A stretch of DNA of 39,297 bases from IMG/VR virus record IMGVR_UViG_3300008469_000008, positions 1 to 39,297 of that record. One strand, given 5' to 3'. The DNA comes from a virus. The translations under genes and the position numbers were made by a program. The stretch's first letter is position 1, and each line of letters begins with the position of its first letter. The notes beneath the pieces were generated by a model that saw only the letters and a program-made list of their open reading frames with translations, did no database searches and was not told the DNA's origin. Positions 3,619-38,737 of the stretch are shown one piece after another.

Positions 3619-4130
3619 TTTAGACCTCCTTCGGTATTAGGTACAGTCTGATCAGCTGTATTAGCTTCATTAAATTGTTCAGCAGTCAATACCTCACTTC
3701 CAACAAAAATGATCTCTCTTAGATTAGCCGTAAAATGTAAGGAATTAGATGTATCTTTATCCTGGCTTTCTGACAAATTTTCAATAACAACATTATCGTA
3801 GGCTTTCAAATTGGTAATCAATGTGAATGGTGTTCTACTGGTTTGTAATTCCAAAAGATCTTCCCAAGCGTCAGCTGATGGTGTCGAGTCGCTAGCAAAT
3901 GACTCGAGTGTATTTAATCCACCAAGTATTGACACCTTTGTATTCGAAACAATACCTGTGATACTGAATGTCATTGGATTAATTATTATGTGATCGTTTA
4001 CGTCTGCACCATTTTCTATAGGGTTTGAAGTTATCGTTGAATTGGTTTGTGCTGACTCGTTCACAATAATATCAAGCTCGATCTCTTCTATGAAATTACC
4101 TTTTCTAAAAATTAACTGTGAAATACTCAT
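3615..4130 (-). CDS. Dit-like baseplate/tail protein
   Basis: This 171-residue protein has the N-terminal pattern of Dit-like myovirus proteins that cap the tail tube at the baseplate. It opens with a strand-rich segment, then has GADVNDHIIINPMTFSITGI, which is the usual 'switch orientation, known property, then define reference frame' region of this family, followed by SRTPFTLITNLKAYDNVVIENL. The C-terminal 30 residues (AEQFNEANTADQTVPNTEGG) look disordered. It begins 1 nt after the tape measure stop and overlaps the plug gene by 4 nt. Confidence 0.75.
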   Translation of the reverse strand: MSISQLIFRKGNFIEEIELDIIVNESAQTNSTITSNPIENGADVNDHIIINPMTFSITGIVSNTKVSILGGLNTLESFASDSTPSADAWEDLLELQTSRTPFTLITNLKAYDNVVIENLSESQDKDTSNSLHFTANLREIIFVGSEVLTAEQFNEANTADQTVPNTEGGLK

Positions 4131-19229: not shown

Positions 19230-19493
19230 CTATCTATCCAAATCAGTATTAACCCTGACTCGCTTTTCTTTTTCTCTTTTAAGGTATGCTATTTTGCGAT
19301 CTACTTGGGGTTTAGCCCAAGGCTCTACTTCAAAACCTAACACACCGATTAAAATCATCATAGTATTATGACTACATTCGTACTTTTTTGCCAGCTCTCT
19401 AATATGTATTCCTGACTCATAGTCTTTTACAACTTCATCTTTCTTTTCATAATAAAGATCGACAACTCTTTTACTTTTTTTCTTTTTATACAT
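19230..19493 (-). CDS. Small HTH DNA-binding protein at head of late operon
   Basis: I start this gene at the ATG at 19493 (87 residues), 7 nt after a GGAG site; a TTG 12 nt upstream lies on the binding site itself and is unlikely. Residues about 22-52 (VVKDYESGIHIRELAKKYEC and following SHNTMM) have the resolvase/Hin-type helix-turn-helix pattern. The remainder is highly basic. It is the first gene after the divergent P-type promoter, so it may regulate late transcription or assist terminase; neither can be shown from sequence. Confidence 0.65.
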   Translation of the reverse strand: MYKKKKSKRVVDLYYEKKDEVVKDYESGIHIRELAKKYECSHNTMMILIGVLGFEVEPWAKPQVDRKIAYLKREKEKRVRVNTDLDR

Positions 19494-19520
19494 AATTTTC
19501 TCCAAACCTTCGATAATTAC

Positions 19521-19553
19521 ATTATAGTCAATCTTACATTATATCAACATTAA
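19521..19553 (-). promoter_or_regulatory. P-type promoter P6, drives late arm
   Basis: On the minus strand: TTAATG (19553-19548), ATAATG (19542-19537, exactly 11 bp on) and the perfect -10 TATAAT (19526-19521, 16 bp after the second hexamer start). It is 27 nt from the HTH gene ATG and is the only minus-strand copy of the family I found. The first hexamer lies in the palindrome ACATTAATGT (19547-19556). Confidence 0.75.
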
Positions 19554-19561
19554 TGTATAAT
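19533..19561 (+). promoter_or_regulatory. Possible divergent plus-strand promoter
   Basis: The plus strand carries CTTACA (19533-19538) and TATAAT (19556-19561) with a 17-bp gap, a normal spacing for a sigma-70 promoter. It overlaps P6 on the other strand, so the two would compete. If active it makes a transcript of about 320 nt of hairpin-rich leader before the primase gene. It lacks the tandem hexamers of the P family. Confidence 0.4.
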
Positions 19562-19572
19562 AGTATCACATA

Positions 19573-19597
19573 CCACGGACAAAGTAACATTCCGTGG
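19573..19597 (+). other. Small hairpin in the divergent region
   Basis: CCACGGA and TCCGTGG form a perfect 7-bp stem around an 11-nt loop. It lies between the divergent promoters and the large inverted repeat and could be an operator or leader hairpin. Confidence 0.5.
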
Positions 19598-19616
19598 CCA
19601 AAAATAAAGGAACGCG

Positions 19617-19829
19617 TATTTCCCGTTTCTCTTTTTCTTACCCCATTTATGCCCTATCCCCCTTTTACGCTATATAATAGAAAAGACTATTTTTAGCATA
19701 AAAGGCTATTATTTTATTAATATATTATCGTATCGGTCATTTTATATATTAACGCAAAAAGGGGGATAGGGCATAAGGGGTCCTCCAAAATAAAAAGAGA
19801 AACGGGAAATATCTGTTTCTCTTTTTATT
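19617..19829. repeat. Large interrupted palindrome, origin or control region
   Basis: Two blocks are repeated in inverted order around an AT-rich core. Block A (19617-19636, 20 bp) matches 19792-19811 perfectly; block B (19648-19666, 19 bp, TATGCCCTATCCCCCTTTT) matches 19757-19775 perfectly. An ACCCC/GGGGT pair also flanks B. The core (19671-19750) is nearly all A/T and contains TATATAATAG and ATTAATATATTATC. A third, partial copy of A (19815-19829) lies downstream. The 397-bp region around it has no gene, and sits at the divergence of the two arms. It fits a replication origin or bidirectional regulatory site; sequence alone does not decide which. Confidence 0.85.
19789..19829. terminator. 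Terminator-like hairpin that competes with the larger palindrome
   Basis: AATAAAAAGAGAAAC (19789-19803) and GTTTCTCTTTTTATT (19815-19829) form a perfect 15-bp stem with an 11-nt loop, followed by a T-rich end in both directions. The left strand of this stem is also the right arm of block A in the large palindrome, so only one of the two structures can form at a time. On the plus strand it would stop leader transcripts just before P1. Confidence 0.55.
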
Positions 19830-19832
19830 CAT

Positions 19833-19865
19833 TTAATCTAATCTTAATGAGATTTTAATTACAAT
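19833..19865 (+). promoter_or_regulatory. P-type promoter P1, primase-helicase operon
   Basis: TTAATC (19833), TTAATG (19844, 11 bp on) and -10 TACAAT (19860, 16 bp after the second hexamer start). It is 25 nt before the primase-helicase ATG, which has an AAAAAGGAG ribosome binding site. Confidence 0.7.
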
Positions 19866-19890
19866 TCTTTACTTAAAAAGGAGATATTTA

Positions 19891-22335
19891 ATGACAAAAG
19901 CCGTTTATGATAAATATTTTAGACAAGGTTTTCAACTGATTGAACTCGGTGAAGATAAGAAACCATTAAAGAAAAGAGTAATAAATGGTAAATGTAAAAA
20001 ACAATCTGAACCATTTGACGAAGAGAAATTTTATGCTATCGTTCCATCTGAGAAACTATTAATAATTGATGTAGATATTAAAAATGGTAAAAAAGGTTTA
20101 GAGTCACTTGCTAAATTGGAAGCTGACCTCATGATGGATCTTGAACCATGTGTCCGTACGGGTAGTGGTGGAATACATATATATGTTACTTTAGATAAAC
20201 CTGTCCGTATAATACAAAAAGAATATCCAGACATAGATTTTATTGGCCACAAGGCTAACGATCGACTATGTACACCGTATGCGGTTGCTGGAGGTCAAAC
20301 TATACAGTTAAGTGGTAAAGATTATACTTATGAGTTATTGAAACCTGATGAGTCACTAATTATCAATGAAATTGATGAGATTAGTGAATTACTTGAAATT
20401 GATGTTGTACAAGTTGAAGCTGATAACAATATGATGTCAATCGATGATCTATATGAAAAGAAAACCCCAGATGAGATTAGATCGTTACTATCATGGTTAG
20501 ACGCTTCGGATTATCATGAATGGATGGCTAATGCTTCGGCTATTAAGCGTGAGCTCGGTAATACCAAAAAAGCTTTTGAGATTTTCAACGAGTGGTCCAA
20601 AACTGCAGACAACTATGATGATCGTGACGCTTGTCTGAAAAAATGGAAAGAAGTTGGTGATTATCAAGGTCAACCAAGAACGATGGCTACATTATATATG
20701 AATGCCTTATCTAATAAAACCAATAAGATTATTAGTGAGATTAACAAATGTGAAGATCCTGAAGAACTATATAGATTAGTTAATGATGAAAAATGGCTTG
20801 ATTATCCCCGCTTTACAAATAAACTGATCAATAATGAGATTACCAAATCATACAGGACTCACTCTCAGGATCTTGGTGAGAATTTACTTTATAATGATTG
20901 CCAAAAACGAACTAAGGTTTTATACGGTAAAGACTTTGTAGATTATGATCAACTTGAAGCAGCTAGTCATGATGACGGCTTTTCTGATTATGTTATGGTT
21001 GGGTCGTTTACTAGAAACCCTTATTTTAGATTATCGGATGGATCTAGATATAACTTAGAAATGATGGGTATGCTATTAGATAAACCTTTAGTCGATATAT
21101 CCAAAAAGCTTAAACTAAAAAAGACCATGACTGTTCAAGTTGCTTTTAGAAATAAGTTAATCGATCATGCAACTAATCATGAGTATAACCCTACAACTAA
21201 TGATCGTGTATTCATAAATGACCGTGGCCAAAGAATACTAAATCTTTTTGATCCCAAAACAGTACCCGTTGAAACTGATTTGACAAATGAAGGCCAAAAG
21301 CTTATTCGTAAATTTATAAACCATTTAAGTAATCTTATGAGTAAAGATGAAGCTGATGTGCTTTTAGATTGGATGGCGTATGCGGCTCAAAATCCAGGTA
21401 AGAAAATACTATGGGTACCGCTCATTCAGTCGGTTGAAGGTGTTGGTAAATCTTTAATAGGTAACTTATTAATCAATCACGTATTTGGTACTCAAAATGC
21501 CGGTGTTGTCGATAGTGTTATTATTGCTGAGAAAAATAACTCATGGGCCTCAAGTAAGATGTTAAGAATACTTGAAGAGATCAAATTATCAGGTCATAAT
21601 AGATATGAGGTTTTAAATCAACTTAAACCATTAATCACAAATCCGACAATAACAAGAGTTGAAAAGTTTGAGGTATCTATGGAAGTTCGTAACACTTGTA
21701 ATTTCATAGCATTTACAAATTTCAAAGACGCATTACCTATTGATGAGCATGACCGCCGTTGGTGGTTAGTCTTCTCACCTATAGACTCATTAGATCAACT
21801 TGAAAAAGTGGTTGGTCAAAATCGTCAAGACTATTTCCAACCATTACATGAGTTATCCAGACCAGATAGTGCTTATGGTACCGAATTTAAAACCTATCTA
21901 TTAAACCGCGATATTAGTAACTTTAATCCAAACTTTCCACCTGAGTCGAAACATAAAGAAGAATTAGCTGAAATTGAGAAAGCTAAATTAACGGGTATAG
22001 ACGAGGTTCAAGACCTGATCAACTACCTATATAAAGACTCAACGGATAAAGTTGTTAATATGACCTTATTACGTGAGGCTAGTGAGCTGGCATTCGATAA
22101 CGGTAAACGTATAACACCAAGAGGCCTAAAACCTATTGAGATTAGAGCCGCACTTAAAAAGCTTGGTTACAAATCAGTATCTAAAAAAGATTTTGGCGAT
22201 GCTGATTGGAAAGGATTAAGTCCCGTGTATTATCATACTAAGACTTGTACGATACCCGAAGCTTGCAGACTTTGGAAAGAAACTAAAACTGTAGACTTTA
22301 TGGCAGATCAATTTGATGATCTAGATGAATTATAA
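19891..22335 (+). CDS. Primase-helicase (Prim-Pol + SF3-type helicase)
   Basis: This 814-residue protein opens the replication operon. The N-terminal 170 residues are a Prim-Pol-type archaeo-eukaryotic primase: IIDVDIKNGKKG (Asp60, Asp62) is motif I and TGSGGIHIYV (His96) is motif II. Residues about 190-265 (IRSLLSWLDASDYHEWMANA) resemble the PriCT-2 linker. The C-terminal part is an SF3-type helicase (DUF5906-like) with Walker A EGVGKS near residue 517, an acidic ILEEIK Walker B-like strand and the NFIAFTNFKDALPIDEHDRR arginine-containing motif. It should make primers and unwind DNA at the fork. Placement next to the palindromic region favours an origin-related role. Confidence 0.9.
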   Translation: MTKAVYDKYFRQGFQLIELGEDKKPLKKRVINGKCKKQSEPFDEEKFYAIVPSEKLLIIDVDIKNGKKGLESLAKLEADLMMDLEPCVRTGSGGIHIYVTLDKPVRIIQKEYPDIDFIGHKANDRLCTPYAVAGGQTIQLSGKDYTYELLKPDESLIINEIDEISELLEIDVVQVEADNNMMSIDDLYEKKTPDEIRSLLSWLDASDYHEWMANASAIKRELGNTKKAFEIFNEWSKTADNYDDRDACLKKWKEVGDYQGQPRTMATLYMNALSNKTNKIISEINKCEDPEELYRLVNDEKWLDYPRFTNKLINNEITKSYRTHSQDLGENLLYNDCQKRTKVLYGKDFVDYDQLEAASHDDGFSDYVMVGSFTRNPYFRLSDGSRYNLEMMGMLLDKPLVDISKKLKLKKTMTVQVAFRNKLIDHATNHEYNPTTNDRVFINDRGQRILNLFDPKTVPVETDLTNEGQKLIRKFINHLSNLMSKDEADVLLDWMAYAAQNPGKKILWVPLIQSVEGVGKSLIGNLLINHVFGTQNAGVVDSVIIAEKNNSWASSKMLRILEEIKLSGHNRYEVLNQLKPLITNPTITRVEKFEVSMEVRNTCNFIAFTNFKDALPIDEHDRRWWLVFSPIDSLDQLEKVVGQNRQDYFQPLHELSRPDSAYGTEFKTYLLNRDISNFNPNFPPESKHKEELAEIEKAKLTGIDEVQDLINYLYKDSTDKVVNMTLLREASELAFDNGKRITPRGLKPIEIRAALKKLGYKSVSKKDFGDADWKGLSPVYYHTKTCTIPEACRLWKETKTVDFMADQFDDLDEL

Positions 22336-22836: not shown

Positions 22837-24093
22837 ATGGAATTAAGTAAAGATCAAAACAAAGCGTTAAAGTTAGCTCTAAGACCTGGACTCAATAGTT
22901 TGTTCATAACAGGTCAAGGTGGTACAGGTAAAAGTGAAATTATAAAAGTATTATGTGGGCAATTAAATCCTAGAGATTATATTTTATTAGCCCCTACCCA
23001 ATCAGCAGCTTTAAAGATAGGGGGAAAGACAATTCATAGTTTTTTCAAAGTAAAGCCTACGATCAATTTGAATGTTGAAAAAGAAGATGATGTTATAAGC
23101 TTCTGTCTCGACGAGATTGACACCGAAAGCGCTGACGGAAAAATCGTTATTATTGATGAAGCCTCTATGCTTGGTGAAAGGATGCTAACAGGTATCTTGA
23201 GTAGGATCAAACCTAAAAAGCTAATACTGTTTGGAGATCCTACTCAACTAAAACCAATTAAGGATAATCCCGTAGACTGGTCGGACTTCTGTGATGAGAC
23301 TGTATACCTTACTCATAATTTTAGAGTTCAAAATGAAGAGCTTAGAAGTATTATTGAAACATTCCGTGATGAAGGTCATGTAATTATGGACGCTGATACG
23401 GTCAGTGAAATATCAGACCTAGATTATTGCCCTAAAACGATTTATATGGCTCACACTAATGAAACTCTAAGTGCTATGCAAAAACACTTTTTAGGATATA
23501 GTAATGCCAAAATAGGTGATACTTTATTAACCTTTGGCAGCTGTGACGATAGTATTCAAAAAATTGTAAAAGTAGCAAATAAAGATATTCTTACAACTTA
23601 CTTTGGTAACAATGATTTGGTTGTGGTTACATCAGTACCAAGAATGATTGATAAAAATTTATGGTCATGTGATGTAGTTATTGAAAAAGATCATCTTAAT
23701 GGTACTGACTCAATCCAAGTAAATCAGTATAATAAAACTCCTTCAGTAATCGTTGGTGACTATAATATCTATAAGCGAACTTTACAAAGAAGATTTAAAA
23801 CAGCCCAAAATCGTCAAAAAGAATTGTTCAAAAAATATAAGGTTGATAAGAGTGCAATTCTTAAAAAGAAAATGACTACGGTTGAAAATGAAGATCTTAG
23901 ACTGAAATGGATCGATTACTTCAATTTGAAGAATTCACCATACGCTAGACATCATCAATTTAGAACTACATATAAGGCCCAAGGTCAATCATTTGATAGT
24001 GTAGTAATCGATTGGTATGACTTGCCGAGTAAAGACCATAAATATGTGGCTATGAGTCGAGCTCAGAATAATTTAATCTTGATTATGGATTAA
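22837..24093 (+). CDS. SF1 DNA helicase (Pif1/RecD/Dda-like)
   Basis: This 418-residue protein has all the SF1B helicase motifs: I GQGGTGKS (residues 26-33), II IIDEAS (about 106-111), III GDPTQLKPI (about 137-145), IV-like LTHNFR, V TYKAQGQSFDSV and VI YVAMSRAQNN near the end. This group (Pif1, RecD, T4 Dda) translocates 5' to 3' and helps replication start and recombination. The distinct middle (residues 280-345) is a Lys-rich insertion between the two RecA-like domains. It is the last gene of the P1 operon; promoter P2 overlaps its stop codon. Confidence 0.9.
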   Translation: MELSKDQNKALKLALRPGLNSLFITGQGGTGKSEIIKVLCGQLNPRDYILLAPTQSAALKIGGKTIHSFFKVKPTINLNVEKEDDVISFCLDEIDTESADGKIVIIDEASMLGERMLTGILSRIKPKKLILFGDPTQLKPIKDNPVDWSDFCDETVYLTHNFRVQNEELRSIIETFRDEGHVIMDADTVSEISDLDYCPKTIYMAHTNETLSAMQKHFLGYSNAKIGDTLLTFGSCDDSIQKIVKVANKDILTTYFGNNDLVVVTSVPRMIDKNLWSCDVVIEKDHLNGTDSIQVNQYNKTPSVIVGDYNIYKRTLQRRFKTAQNRQKELFKKYKVDKSAILKKKMTTVENEDLRLKWIDYFNLKNSPYARHHQFRTTYKAQGQSFDSVVIDWYDLPSKDHKYVAMSRAQNNLILIMD

Positions 24094-24122
24094 TGATAGT
24101 CTAATGTAAATAATTATACAAT
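24090..24122 (+). promoter_or_regulatory. P-type promoter P2, DUF2800-polymerase operon
   Basis: TTAATG (24090), CTAATG (24101, 11 bp on) and -10 TACAAT (24117, 16 bp after the second hexamer start). The first hexamer overlaps the helicase stop codon. The ATG of the next gene is 28 nt beyond the -10. Confidence 0.75.
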
Positions 24123-29965: not shown

Positions 29966-29998
29966 CTAATGTTAGTCTAATGTGAATTTAGTGATAAT
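29966..29998 (+). promoter_or_regulatory. P-type promoter P3, methyltransferase operon
   Basis: CTAATG (29966), CTAATG (29977, 11 bp on) and -10 GATAAT (29993, 16 bp after the second hexamer start). It begins directly after the VRR-NUC stop and is 31 nt before the ATG at 30030. Confidence 0.75.
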
Positions 29999-35822: not shown

Positions 35823-36252
35823 GCCTTATATCAATCCATACTATTTAACCGTTATCGACGATATGATAAATATACTCGATAACAGTGAACCAGGTAAACG
35901 CCGATGGACTCATGATGAGGTCACCGGTTTACCAAACTACTCGGCAACCACCAGGAGTACATTTCCCGATTGGTCCAAATTCTTTTATGTCAAAACTCCA
36001 AAAGATAGATATATTGATTACTGTATAGTAAATGGGCCTAAGCCGCACGATCACGGTTATTTCAATGGTAATACTAAAGAGCTCAAAAGAATACTTAATA
36101 ACTCAAAAGATGGTGTATTATCAAATTATGATCGTATACAAAAAGCCTGGGAGATTGCCGTATCTGGATTTTTAGATGATCTTGCTGATTTTGAGGAACT
36201 TCATGGTGAAAGATATTACCCTGATGAGGTCTATGAAGATTTTCCTTTTTAA
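35803..36252 (+). CDS. Unrecognised protein at operon end
   Basis: This 149-residue protein overlaps the MazG-like gene by 20 nt and ends the P4 operon. It starts MKILVIKPYINPYYLTVIDD, has an Arg/Trp/Thr-rich middle (GKRRWTHDEVTGLPNYSATT) and PKPHDHGYFNG, and an acidic Tyr/Asp/Glu C-terminus. The His-Asp-His of PHDHG is conspicuous but I cannot link it to a family. Its coupling to the nucleotide enzymes suggests a related task. Confidence 0.65.
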   Translation: MKILVIKPYINPYYLTVIDDMINILDNSEPGKRRWTHDEVTGLPNYSATTRSTFPDWSKFFYVKTPKDRYIDYCIVNGPKPHDHGYFNGNTKELKRILNNSKDGVLSNYDRIQKAWEIAVSGFLDDLADFEELHGERYYPDEVYEDFPF

Positions 36253-36259
36253 CTATATA

Positions 36260-36292
36260 TTAATGTCAATCTAATGTGTATGAATATATACT
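36260..36292 (+). promoter_or_regulatory. P-type promoter P5, right-end small genes
   Basis: TTAATG (36260), CTAATG (36271, 11 bp on) and -10 TATACT (36287, 16 bp after the second hexamer start), 31 nt before the ATG at 36324. Confidence 0.75.
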
Positions 36293-36712: not shown

Positions 36713-38737
36713 CTATATAAGTGATCCACCATATACATATCTACAAGCAAACGGGTATCTCTCTCCACTAGGTAGAACTGTGTCTACACCTTGAATAGGA
36801 CAATAGTAATATTTTATATAATTTGCATTATCCCATAACTGCTGATTCCTTTGAGATTTACCTTCTTCAAAGAATTGCGGCAATATCGCAATATGTTGAT
36901 TATTAGCACCGGCTTGAATTAATGGAGACCATTCTTTACCAAAGGAATAAAAACTCTCAGTAGGTGTTGCTGGATTAAATGTTGTAGCATTACTTAAATA
37001 TAGATCTCTATCTGTAGAATGCATGCCTGTATATAAAGTTTTAATAGTCAAATTTGCAACACTAGCTTCATAATACCCCCTAACATCGACGGCGCCGTCT
37101 AAGCCAAAATCAGTAAGCAATCTAATACTCGCATCAACATTTGCCTTTAAAGTACCTGTATATCTCAGTGTAATATTTTTACAAGTAAGAATATCTCCAA
37201 CTGCAATAGCATTACTTGCCGTTGTTGCACTTGTTTCTATGCCTATCTTTTTAATAACCTTAGGTGCTACAATTTGTAATAACATTTCACTTGCTACATC
37301 TCCTCCATGATAACTGCCGACAAAAGTTCCACTTCCGTCTATCATGACGGTGTCAATACTAGCACCGGTACCGCTATATAAAACTGGTGTAAACACACCC
37401 AAGATAAGAGTATCGTAAAAACCGGCGCTCGGGTTGCTAGTTGTTGGTAAATCACCCACCTCATAGAAGTTAGCTCCGAATACATAACAAAACCCTGACG
37501 CACCTGTATTAGAAATATTAATCACATTGTTTACATTTTTATCTAAATCAATGGAAATTAGTCTTAAATGATTTCCGGATACTAATTCTTTAGGAGCTAT
37601 TGCTGGAACAGTAACACCGTTTATTGTAACTACTATACTATCCGTTGAACCGGTTGAAGTTAGAAACAATAAGTTACCTTTTGTAGAAACGTTACCGTTA
37701 ACCGTAAAAGTAATATCATCTCCAATTGGGACACTGTATGCAAAATCATCAGTATTTCCATCAGGAGCCCAGGCATTGTCTATAGGGGATAAGTAGCTTG
37801 ATAGCCGTAGATCTGATGTAGTAACACCTGCTGATTGAGCAGTAGGCACTCTAGTTATAGCAAACCCACCTGTATGCACATAAGAATTTACCACCCTGAG
37901 TCTATCCCATGTCACCCCTGCATCATTTACCCCTGATCCACCTACACCATTAACTAAATCAAAACGAGCAATTTTACCCGATGTAGTTAGACTAATGATA
38001 GAATAACATTCACTAAAAGGACTCGTTACTGCATTATCTGTCTGTGCTCTTTTTACTATAAGCTTTTCATAAGCTCTCCCAATATCATATTCCCAAGCTT
38101 CTCCGTCTCTAACGATAGTTGCAGTTTTATATACTTTATCTAAAGTACCATTAGTAATAAATGCTCCAGAATAAGTGGTGCCGTTTCCTATTAGTTTTTT
38201 ACCGCCTAAATCTATGTTCGACGTAATTGTTACCTCTTTTTGAGAAACAGTTATATTTGACGCACCAGATCTAACCGCAGCACCTAGAGCTGTTGCGACA
38301 TTCTCATTTTCTACACCTGTAGATCCAACCTGCTTAATATCAATAGTATTATTTATAGGTAATACAACGGCTATATTCCCATTATTTAAAGTGATAGCAT
38401 GTCTCTCATCTATTGTTCCACCGTATGAACTAAGTACCCTATAAGTAGCACCTCCTCCATCTGAAACGGCTGAAAAACCCCTTGTTTTAACCGTTGATCC
38501 AGCTGGTAAATCAACACTAATCATGCTAGTTTTAGTATCAATTATACGGATTACTTCATCGTTTAGATATTTTATCCATTTATATACTAAGTTTTGCCAC
38601 CAGTTAAATGATTGAAATGGGGGCTTTTCAGGAATACCCGCAGGAGCTAACCAGCCCTCATCTTTATGTTGTTGATCAACCTCTACGATATTAACTTCGT
38701 TTTTATCCCATTCGGGAATAGTATTTGGAATAGCCAT
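36713..38737 (-). CDS. Tail fibre / receptor-binding protein
   Basis: This 674-residue protein lies at the end of the tail module. The N-terminus (IPNTIPEWDKNEVNIVEVDQ then FQSFNWWQNLVYKWIKYLND) is a conserved attachment region found in many fibres that bind the baseplate. Residues about 70-130 (SVDLPAGSTVKTRGFSAVSD, GGGATYRVLSS) look like a tailspike-type head domain leading into a right-handed beta-helix; the middle is rich in Gly, Asn, Thr and Ser and suggests a long beta-structure. No catalytic site for polysaccharide cleavage is recognisable. It would recognise the host surface. It is the likeliest site of host-range variation. Confidence 0.8.
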   Translation of the reverse strand: MAIPNTIPEWDKNEVNIVEVDQQHKDEGWLAPAGIPEKPPFQSFNWWQNLVYKWIKYLNDEVIRIIDTKTSMISVDLPAGSTVKTRGFSAVSDGGGATYRVLSSYGGTIDERHAITLNNGNIAVVLPINNTIDIKQVGSTGVENENVATALGAAVRSGASNITVSQKEVTITSNIDLGGKKLIGNGTTYSGAFITNGTLDKVYKTATIVRDGEAWEYDIGRAYEKLIVKRAQTDNAVTSPFSECYSIISLTTSGKIARFDLVNGVGGSGVNDAGVTWDRLRVVNSYVHTGGFAITRVPTAQSAGVTTSDLRLSSYLSPIDNAWAPDGNTDDFAYSVPIGDDITFTVNGNVSTKGNLLFLTSTGSTDSIVVTINGVTVPAIAPKELVSGNHLRLISIDLDKNVNNVINISNTGASGFCYVFGANFYEVGDLPTTSNPSAGFYDTLILGVFTPVLYSGTGASIDTVMIDGSGTFVGSYHGGDVASEMLLQIVAPKVIKKIGIETSATTASNAIAVGDILTCKNITLRYTGTLKANVDASIRLLTDFGLDGAVDVRGYYEASVANLTIKTLYTGMHSTDRDLYLSNATTFNPATPTESFYSFGKEWSPLIQAGANNQHIAILPQFFEEGKSQRNQQLWDNANYIKYYYCPIQGVDTVLPSGERYPFACRYVYGGSLI

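Follow-up and report, generated by a model that had tools for sequence, protein, structure and literature searches.

The window, as we call the 39,297-bp virus record analysed here over its full length, carries a large palindrome just ahead of its primase-helicase gene. Judged by its sequence and by its likeness to studied replicons, this palindrome is probably a bidirectional origin of phage replication, which would act in double-stranded, possibly cruciform, DNA. The initial annotation had offered two readings, a replication origin or an RNA switch governing read-through into the primase operon. Comparison supports the origin: the symmetry is kept in relatives without the sequence, and mirrored arms stand beside Prim-Pol/SF3-type genes elsewhere.

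A mirror-image element at the divergence of two gene arms

The palindrome is intergenic and lies, as had been annotated, where a leftward arm (terminase, portal and head genes) and the rightward replication arm diverge; 62 bp separate it from the start of the primase gene downstream. Its outer block, A, is a perfect inverted pair of 20 bp (19617–19636 and 19792–19811, both + strand), which confirms the earlier description. The inner block, B, is likewise perfectly inverted (19647–19666 and 19757–19776, + strand, the right arm being G-rich on that strand) and measures 20 bp, not the 19 bp first given. Between the two copies of B lies a core of 90 bp (19667–19756, no strand assigned; GC 0.22), the proposed melting region. 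The core had been described as about 80 bp of nearly pure A/T, which is right as to its A/T richness and a little strong as to its degree: A/T makes up 78% of the core and 81% of its inner 81 bp. Because the spacers between the blocks differ by 5 nt, A and B are not exactly coaxial. The two-block arms are 82% complementary overall, spacer included. A weaker outward extension (19602–19616, opposite 19812–19826) gives arms of 38 nt with 82% complementarity. That block A has a third, partial copy is likewise borne out: 19789–19803 pairs perfectly over 15 bp with 19815–19829 and T-rich sequence follows, which makes 19789–19829 (+) an alternative, terminator-like hairpin with 4 G-C pairs in its stem. 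A small separate hairpin, CCACGGA-N11-TCCGTGG, lies directly left of the palindrome (19573–19597).

Could such a palindrome arise by chance? We scanned mirror symmetry along the full record and found a score of 34.0 at the palindrome. The runner-up position scored 18.0, and ten shuffled sequences of 12 kb each never exceeded 14.5, which excludes chance. Single-strand folding gave z = −10.2 as RNA and −9.1 as DNA, and none of 200 shuffles folded equally well. The pattern is present in one copy, with no second occurrence in the record. A DNA search with the palindrome region against phage genomes returned no match, nor did an exact scan of viral contigs for block B, and a scan of genome contigs returned no encoded relative. 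GC skew was dropped as origin evidence and plays no part in the origin call, since it follows gene orientation.

The gene to the right (19891–22335, +) encodes a primase-helicase with a Prim-Pol-like N-terminus, a PriCT-2 domain and an SF3-type DUF5906 helicase (matches to PHROG 1156, PriCT_2 and DUF5906) and is the proposed initiator. Its residues 4–166 match a PHROG DNA polymerase/primase family, with Prim-Pol itself below Pfam's threshold; a 31% identical relative, L008, has a Pfam Prim-Pol match at 1.6e-8. A profile of the protein and its relatives matches, among solved structures, the helicase region of 6k9e (E 1.4e-12), which we take to be the NrS-1 phage primase-polymerase. This match and the DUF5906 match together support the SF3 helicase assignment. 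The NrS-1 enzyme forms a hexameric ring resembling SF3 helicases such as papillomavirus E1 (PMC7102993). In the C-terminal region, where a pRN1-type protein has a winged-helix DNA-binding domain, the window's protein gave no Pfam match, and structure prediction from a shallow alignment reached a poor pLDDT of 44.

On the left, a leftward gene (19230–19505, −) encodes a small putative DNA-binding protein with a weak match to PHROG 1303 (DNA binding protein), and ORFs of 89 and 86 aa occupy the same palindrome-adjoining place in two relatives, L003 and L004. Elsewhere in the window, the right end holds a leftward gene of 674 aa (36713–38737, −), oriented against its neighbours and with no PHROGs or Pfam match.

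Symmetry retained without sequence

Close relatives of the window's primase (62–68% identical over aligned parts) were found in three viral contigs, L003, L004 and L005, and in all three the corresponding place beside the gene is occupied by a long inverted repeat. L003 has 31 bp without a mismatch, L004 has 33 bp with a single one, and L005 has 29 bp with 79% complementarity; the cores span 137–142 bp. When the four phages are compared, left arms are 32–52% identical between phages, whereas the arms within each phage are 79–100% complementary. Thus, across this small set, arm sequence changes while the mirror image is retained, which suggests that the symmetry of the palindrome matters more than its exact letters. 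The initial annotation had called for a search for compensatory changes in relatives, and its outcome favours a conserved symmetric structure. The same place, the same symmetry and a different sequence in L003–L005 also argue for the origin reading. From the near-complete turnover of arms whose complementarity is restored each time, we would go one step further, tentatively: in this phage clade the origin may be recognised mainly by mirror symmetry, as a cruciform or as two mirrored loading tracks, rather than by a fixed sequence, and the iteron origins of phage-inducible islands, the stem-loop of the plasmid pRN1 and these phage elements may form one family of mirrored origins tied to Prim-Pol/SF3 enzymes.

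The cores of L003–L005 (for example L003:5602–5741) share stretches such as TATAAGAAAGAGCTA and CATAATGCG and contain long runs in which purines and pyrimidines alternate; in the window, the core is shorter and holds only a trace of TATAAGAAAGAGCTA. In each of the four phages, direct repeats of 15–23 bp coincide with the outer ends of the palindrome or lie close to them: 19625–19639/19815–19829 in the window, where they represent the third copy of block A, 5550–5564/5779–5793 in L003, 4196–4218/4423–4445 in L004 and 2346–2360/2563–2577 in L005. Such repeats are the sole suggestion that the palindrome is an inserted mobile element, its inverted repeats flanked by target-site duplications. We consider this highly improbable, given that the element sits at the same place in four of four phages with flanks and core ends that are partly alignable, that its arms differ between phages, that each genome has one copy and that no relative lacking the element was found.

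Are mirrored elements also found beside more distant primases? L008 has two nested mirrored blocks beside its Prim-Pol/SF3-type gene and L010 has three. The palindrome is 5' of the primase gene in the window and L003–L005, and a mirrored element is found 3' of it in Vibrio phages 1.017.O and LP.1, Serratia phage JS26, Burkholderia phage AH2, Bordetella phage BPP-1 and Achromobacter phage phiAxp-2. Over 19 loci, a count that includes the first loci, which generated the idea, and close relatives that are not independent, 11 had their top mirror peak outside the primase gene at a distance of no more than 600 bp, against 2.1 expected at random; none of 1,000,000 simulations of random peak placement reached 11. 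This clustering beside the primase gene is a further argument for an origin. Since the first loci had suggested the idea and the close relatives were not independent, six further phages were picked before scanning; four of these had their top peak 72–246 bp 3' of the gene, with individually weak scores of 12–16.

Tandem repeats of 8–12 bp occupy one or both arms of the mirrored element in eight distant phages, and the repeats are themselves mirrored, as in the origins of phage-inducible islands (PMC6092414), which again speaks for origin function. Against it count that the window's arms contain no tandem iterons (p 0.69 and 0.47), that some phages with this enzyme type (phiVC8, PaMx11, STP-3 and AhMtk13b) gave no clear mirrored element in the mirror scan, that the close relatives number three and that the Prim-Pol match of the window's protein stays under the Pfam threshold. 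The arms of L003 likewise lack tandem repeats, and those of L004 and L005 are borderline. In L008, the right arm of the mirrored element (3668–3693) contains TTTGGTTA, the priming motif of the NrS-1 primase-polymerase.

The distant phages also bear on whether the palindrome is a packaging site (pac or cos) near the small terminase gene, which is 394 bp away in the window and separated from the element by one or two genes in L003 and L004. JS26 and AH2 keep the element beside the primase gene, over 9 kb from the terminase genes. Its position in these phages goes with the primase rather than the terminase, which makes a packaging site very unlikely and strengthens the origin reading. Two terminase relatives, Vibrio 1.210.O and Edwardsiella GF-2, are represented by terminase-side halves only and are uninformative on the element.

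Outward promoter-like motifs and the case for an RNA element

The palindrome is flanked on both sides by a promoter-like motif, TTAATG-N5-TTAATG-N10-TATAAT, that faces outward in all four phages (the window, L003, L004 and L005), with scores of 16–17 of 18 positions and a spacing of 8 on one L003 side. Such scores on both strands were matched in none of 300 shuffles per region. In the window, the copy facing the primase operon reads TTAATC-N5-TTAATG-N10-TACAAT (19833–19865, +; 16 of 18 positions) and the copy facing the leftward gene reads TTAATG-N5-ATAATG-N10-TATAAT (19521–19553, −; 17 of 18), which would place transcript starts near 19872 (+) and 19514 (−). Because these predicted promoters lie outside the palindrome and point away from it, neither predicted transcript contains it; thus, if the motifs are the promoters, the palindrome would be untranscribed, an arrangement that suits an origin. 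This is a prediction from the DNA letters alone.

Tandem TTAATG-like hexamers with an 11-bp spacing occur at several gene boundaries of the window (24079–24106, 29966–29993 and 36249–36276, as well as 19521–19553 and 19833–19865). They total 22 matches against 14.4 expected, a number found in 3 of 100 shuffles, and are possibly a phage-wide activator or promoter motif.

How does the alternative of an RNA switch or attenuator fare? On this reading, the palindrome would be part of the leader of the primase transcript, and read-through would depend on which of two structures forms, the long hairpin or the short terminator hairpin. The RNA fold is indeed very stable, the hairpin at 19789–19829 is terminator-like, and a sigma-70-like match at 19533–19561 (+) could drive transcription through the palindrome. 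The conserved motifs predicted as promoters in four phages nevertheless leave the palindrome outside both transcripts. In mirrored alignments from eight loci, the primase-coding strand has 32 G.U and 31 A.C mismatches, in a test diluted by the weak outer parts that the alignments take in; this near equality gives no hint that the ability to fold as RNA is preserved on one strand. Among the repeats listed for L003–L005, none corresponds to the terminator-like hairpin; Rfam at gathering thresholds matched no family to the palindrome region, and several phages have their mirrored element on the 3' side of the primase gene. Control of primase read-through by this palindrome is therefore unsupported, and we regard an RNA switch as unlikely.

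A leader RNA switch fits better with a second structured element that lies between the palindrome and the primase gene in the relatives (L004:4500–4634, L005:2651–2790 and L003:5836–5994) and is absent from the window. It lies shortly downstream of the predicted + start site and is built on AGGTGATCA repeats, of which the left arm can pair with the middle or the distal copy. Its RNA folds have z scores of −7.7 (L004), −6.0 (L005) and −4.1 (L003), both-sided changes are found at 5 pairs, and its CCTTCC-like loops are complementary to the ribosome-binding sequence GGAAGG.

The position of the palindrome between two outward motifs and beside a putative DNA-binding gene would also suit an operator, or a looping site, that serves the two divergent promoters and is recognised by a phage regulator such as the small DNA-binding protein. 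An operator would be expected to conserve its sequence, but the arms are not conserved, and the element found 3' of the primase gene in other phages is not between divergent promoters. We judge this explanation quite unlikely.

A proposed origin and its likeness to known systems

How might such an origin work? What we infer for the palindrome is origin activity, binding by the primase-helicase, loading of a double hexamer and bidirectionality. The adjacent Prim-Pol/PriCT-2/SF3-type primase-helicase would be the initiator, either by itself or together with the small DNA-binding protein encoded on the other side of the palindrome. One hexamer would assemble on each mirror-image arm, the two opposed hexamers would open the A/T-rich core, and both strands would be primed. 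Forks would then leave to the left and to the right, in the same directions as the two gene arms.

The replication origins of Prim-Pol/SF3 phages have been little mapped so far. If the proposed function is true, mirrored origins extend to many tailed phages and can be found in a simple way, and it becomes testable by what means an initiator recognises an origin of changing sequence and constant symmetry. New would be the evidence that symmetry outlives sequence in Prim-Pol/SF3 phages and a mirrored layout that joins island, pRN1 and phage origins.

With SV40-type origins and their T-antigen double hexamer (PMC9894130), the window would share a proposed principle, in which a symmetric origin carries two opposed ring helicases; this is an analogy only, as proteins and sites differ. 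The NrS-1 replicon (PMC7102993, PMC8718748) supplies, through its helicase region, the closest solved relative of the window's enzyme, a hexameric SF3-like ring. The NrS-1 priming motif TTTGGTTA does not occur in the window's palindrome, and its two copies in the window are at chance level.

The Sulfolobus plasmid pRN1 offers a functional parallel. A stem-loop beside its Prim-Pol/SF3 gene is needed for replication, with its structure conserved and its sequence not, and a stem mutant replicated only after a second mutation had made the stem symmetric again; for the Bordetella phages BIP-1 and BPP-1, an origin of this type was proposed in the same study (PMC4234260). This requirement for a stem-loop with a related enzyme favours an origin in the window, where a large inverted repeat again lies beside a Prim-Pol/SF3 replication gene, conserved in structure without sequence and lacking arm iterons. 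The two differ in design: pRN1 has a 21-nt stem and a 58-nt loop 3' of the gene, whereas the window has two 20-bp blocks around a 90-bp core, 5' of the gene and between outward promoter-like motifs. Function has been demonstrated in pRN1 only, the window's element being known from sequence.

The origins of phage-inducible islands, both SaPI and Gram-negative (PMC6092414, PMC7581432), lie 3' of rep and have clear iterons, whereas the window's element is 5' of the primase gene with arms that lack them. The general plan is shared nonetheless, two sets of sites around an A/T-rich region with a primase/helicase initiator adjoining, and several distant phages extend the likeness to mirrored tandem iterons. 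In SaPI, the iterons appear to be bound by two hexamers of Rep (PMC7581432).
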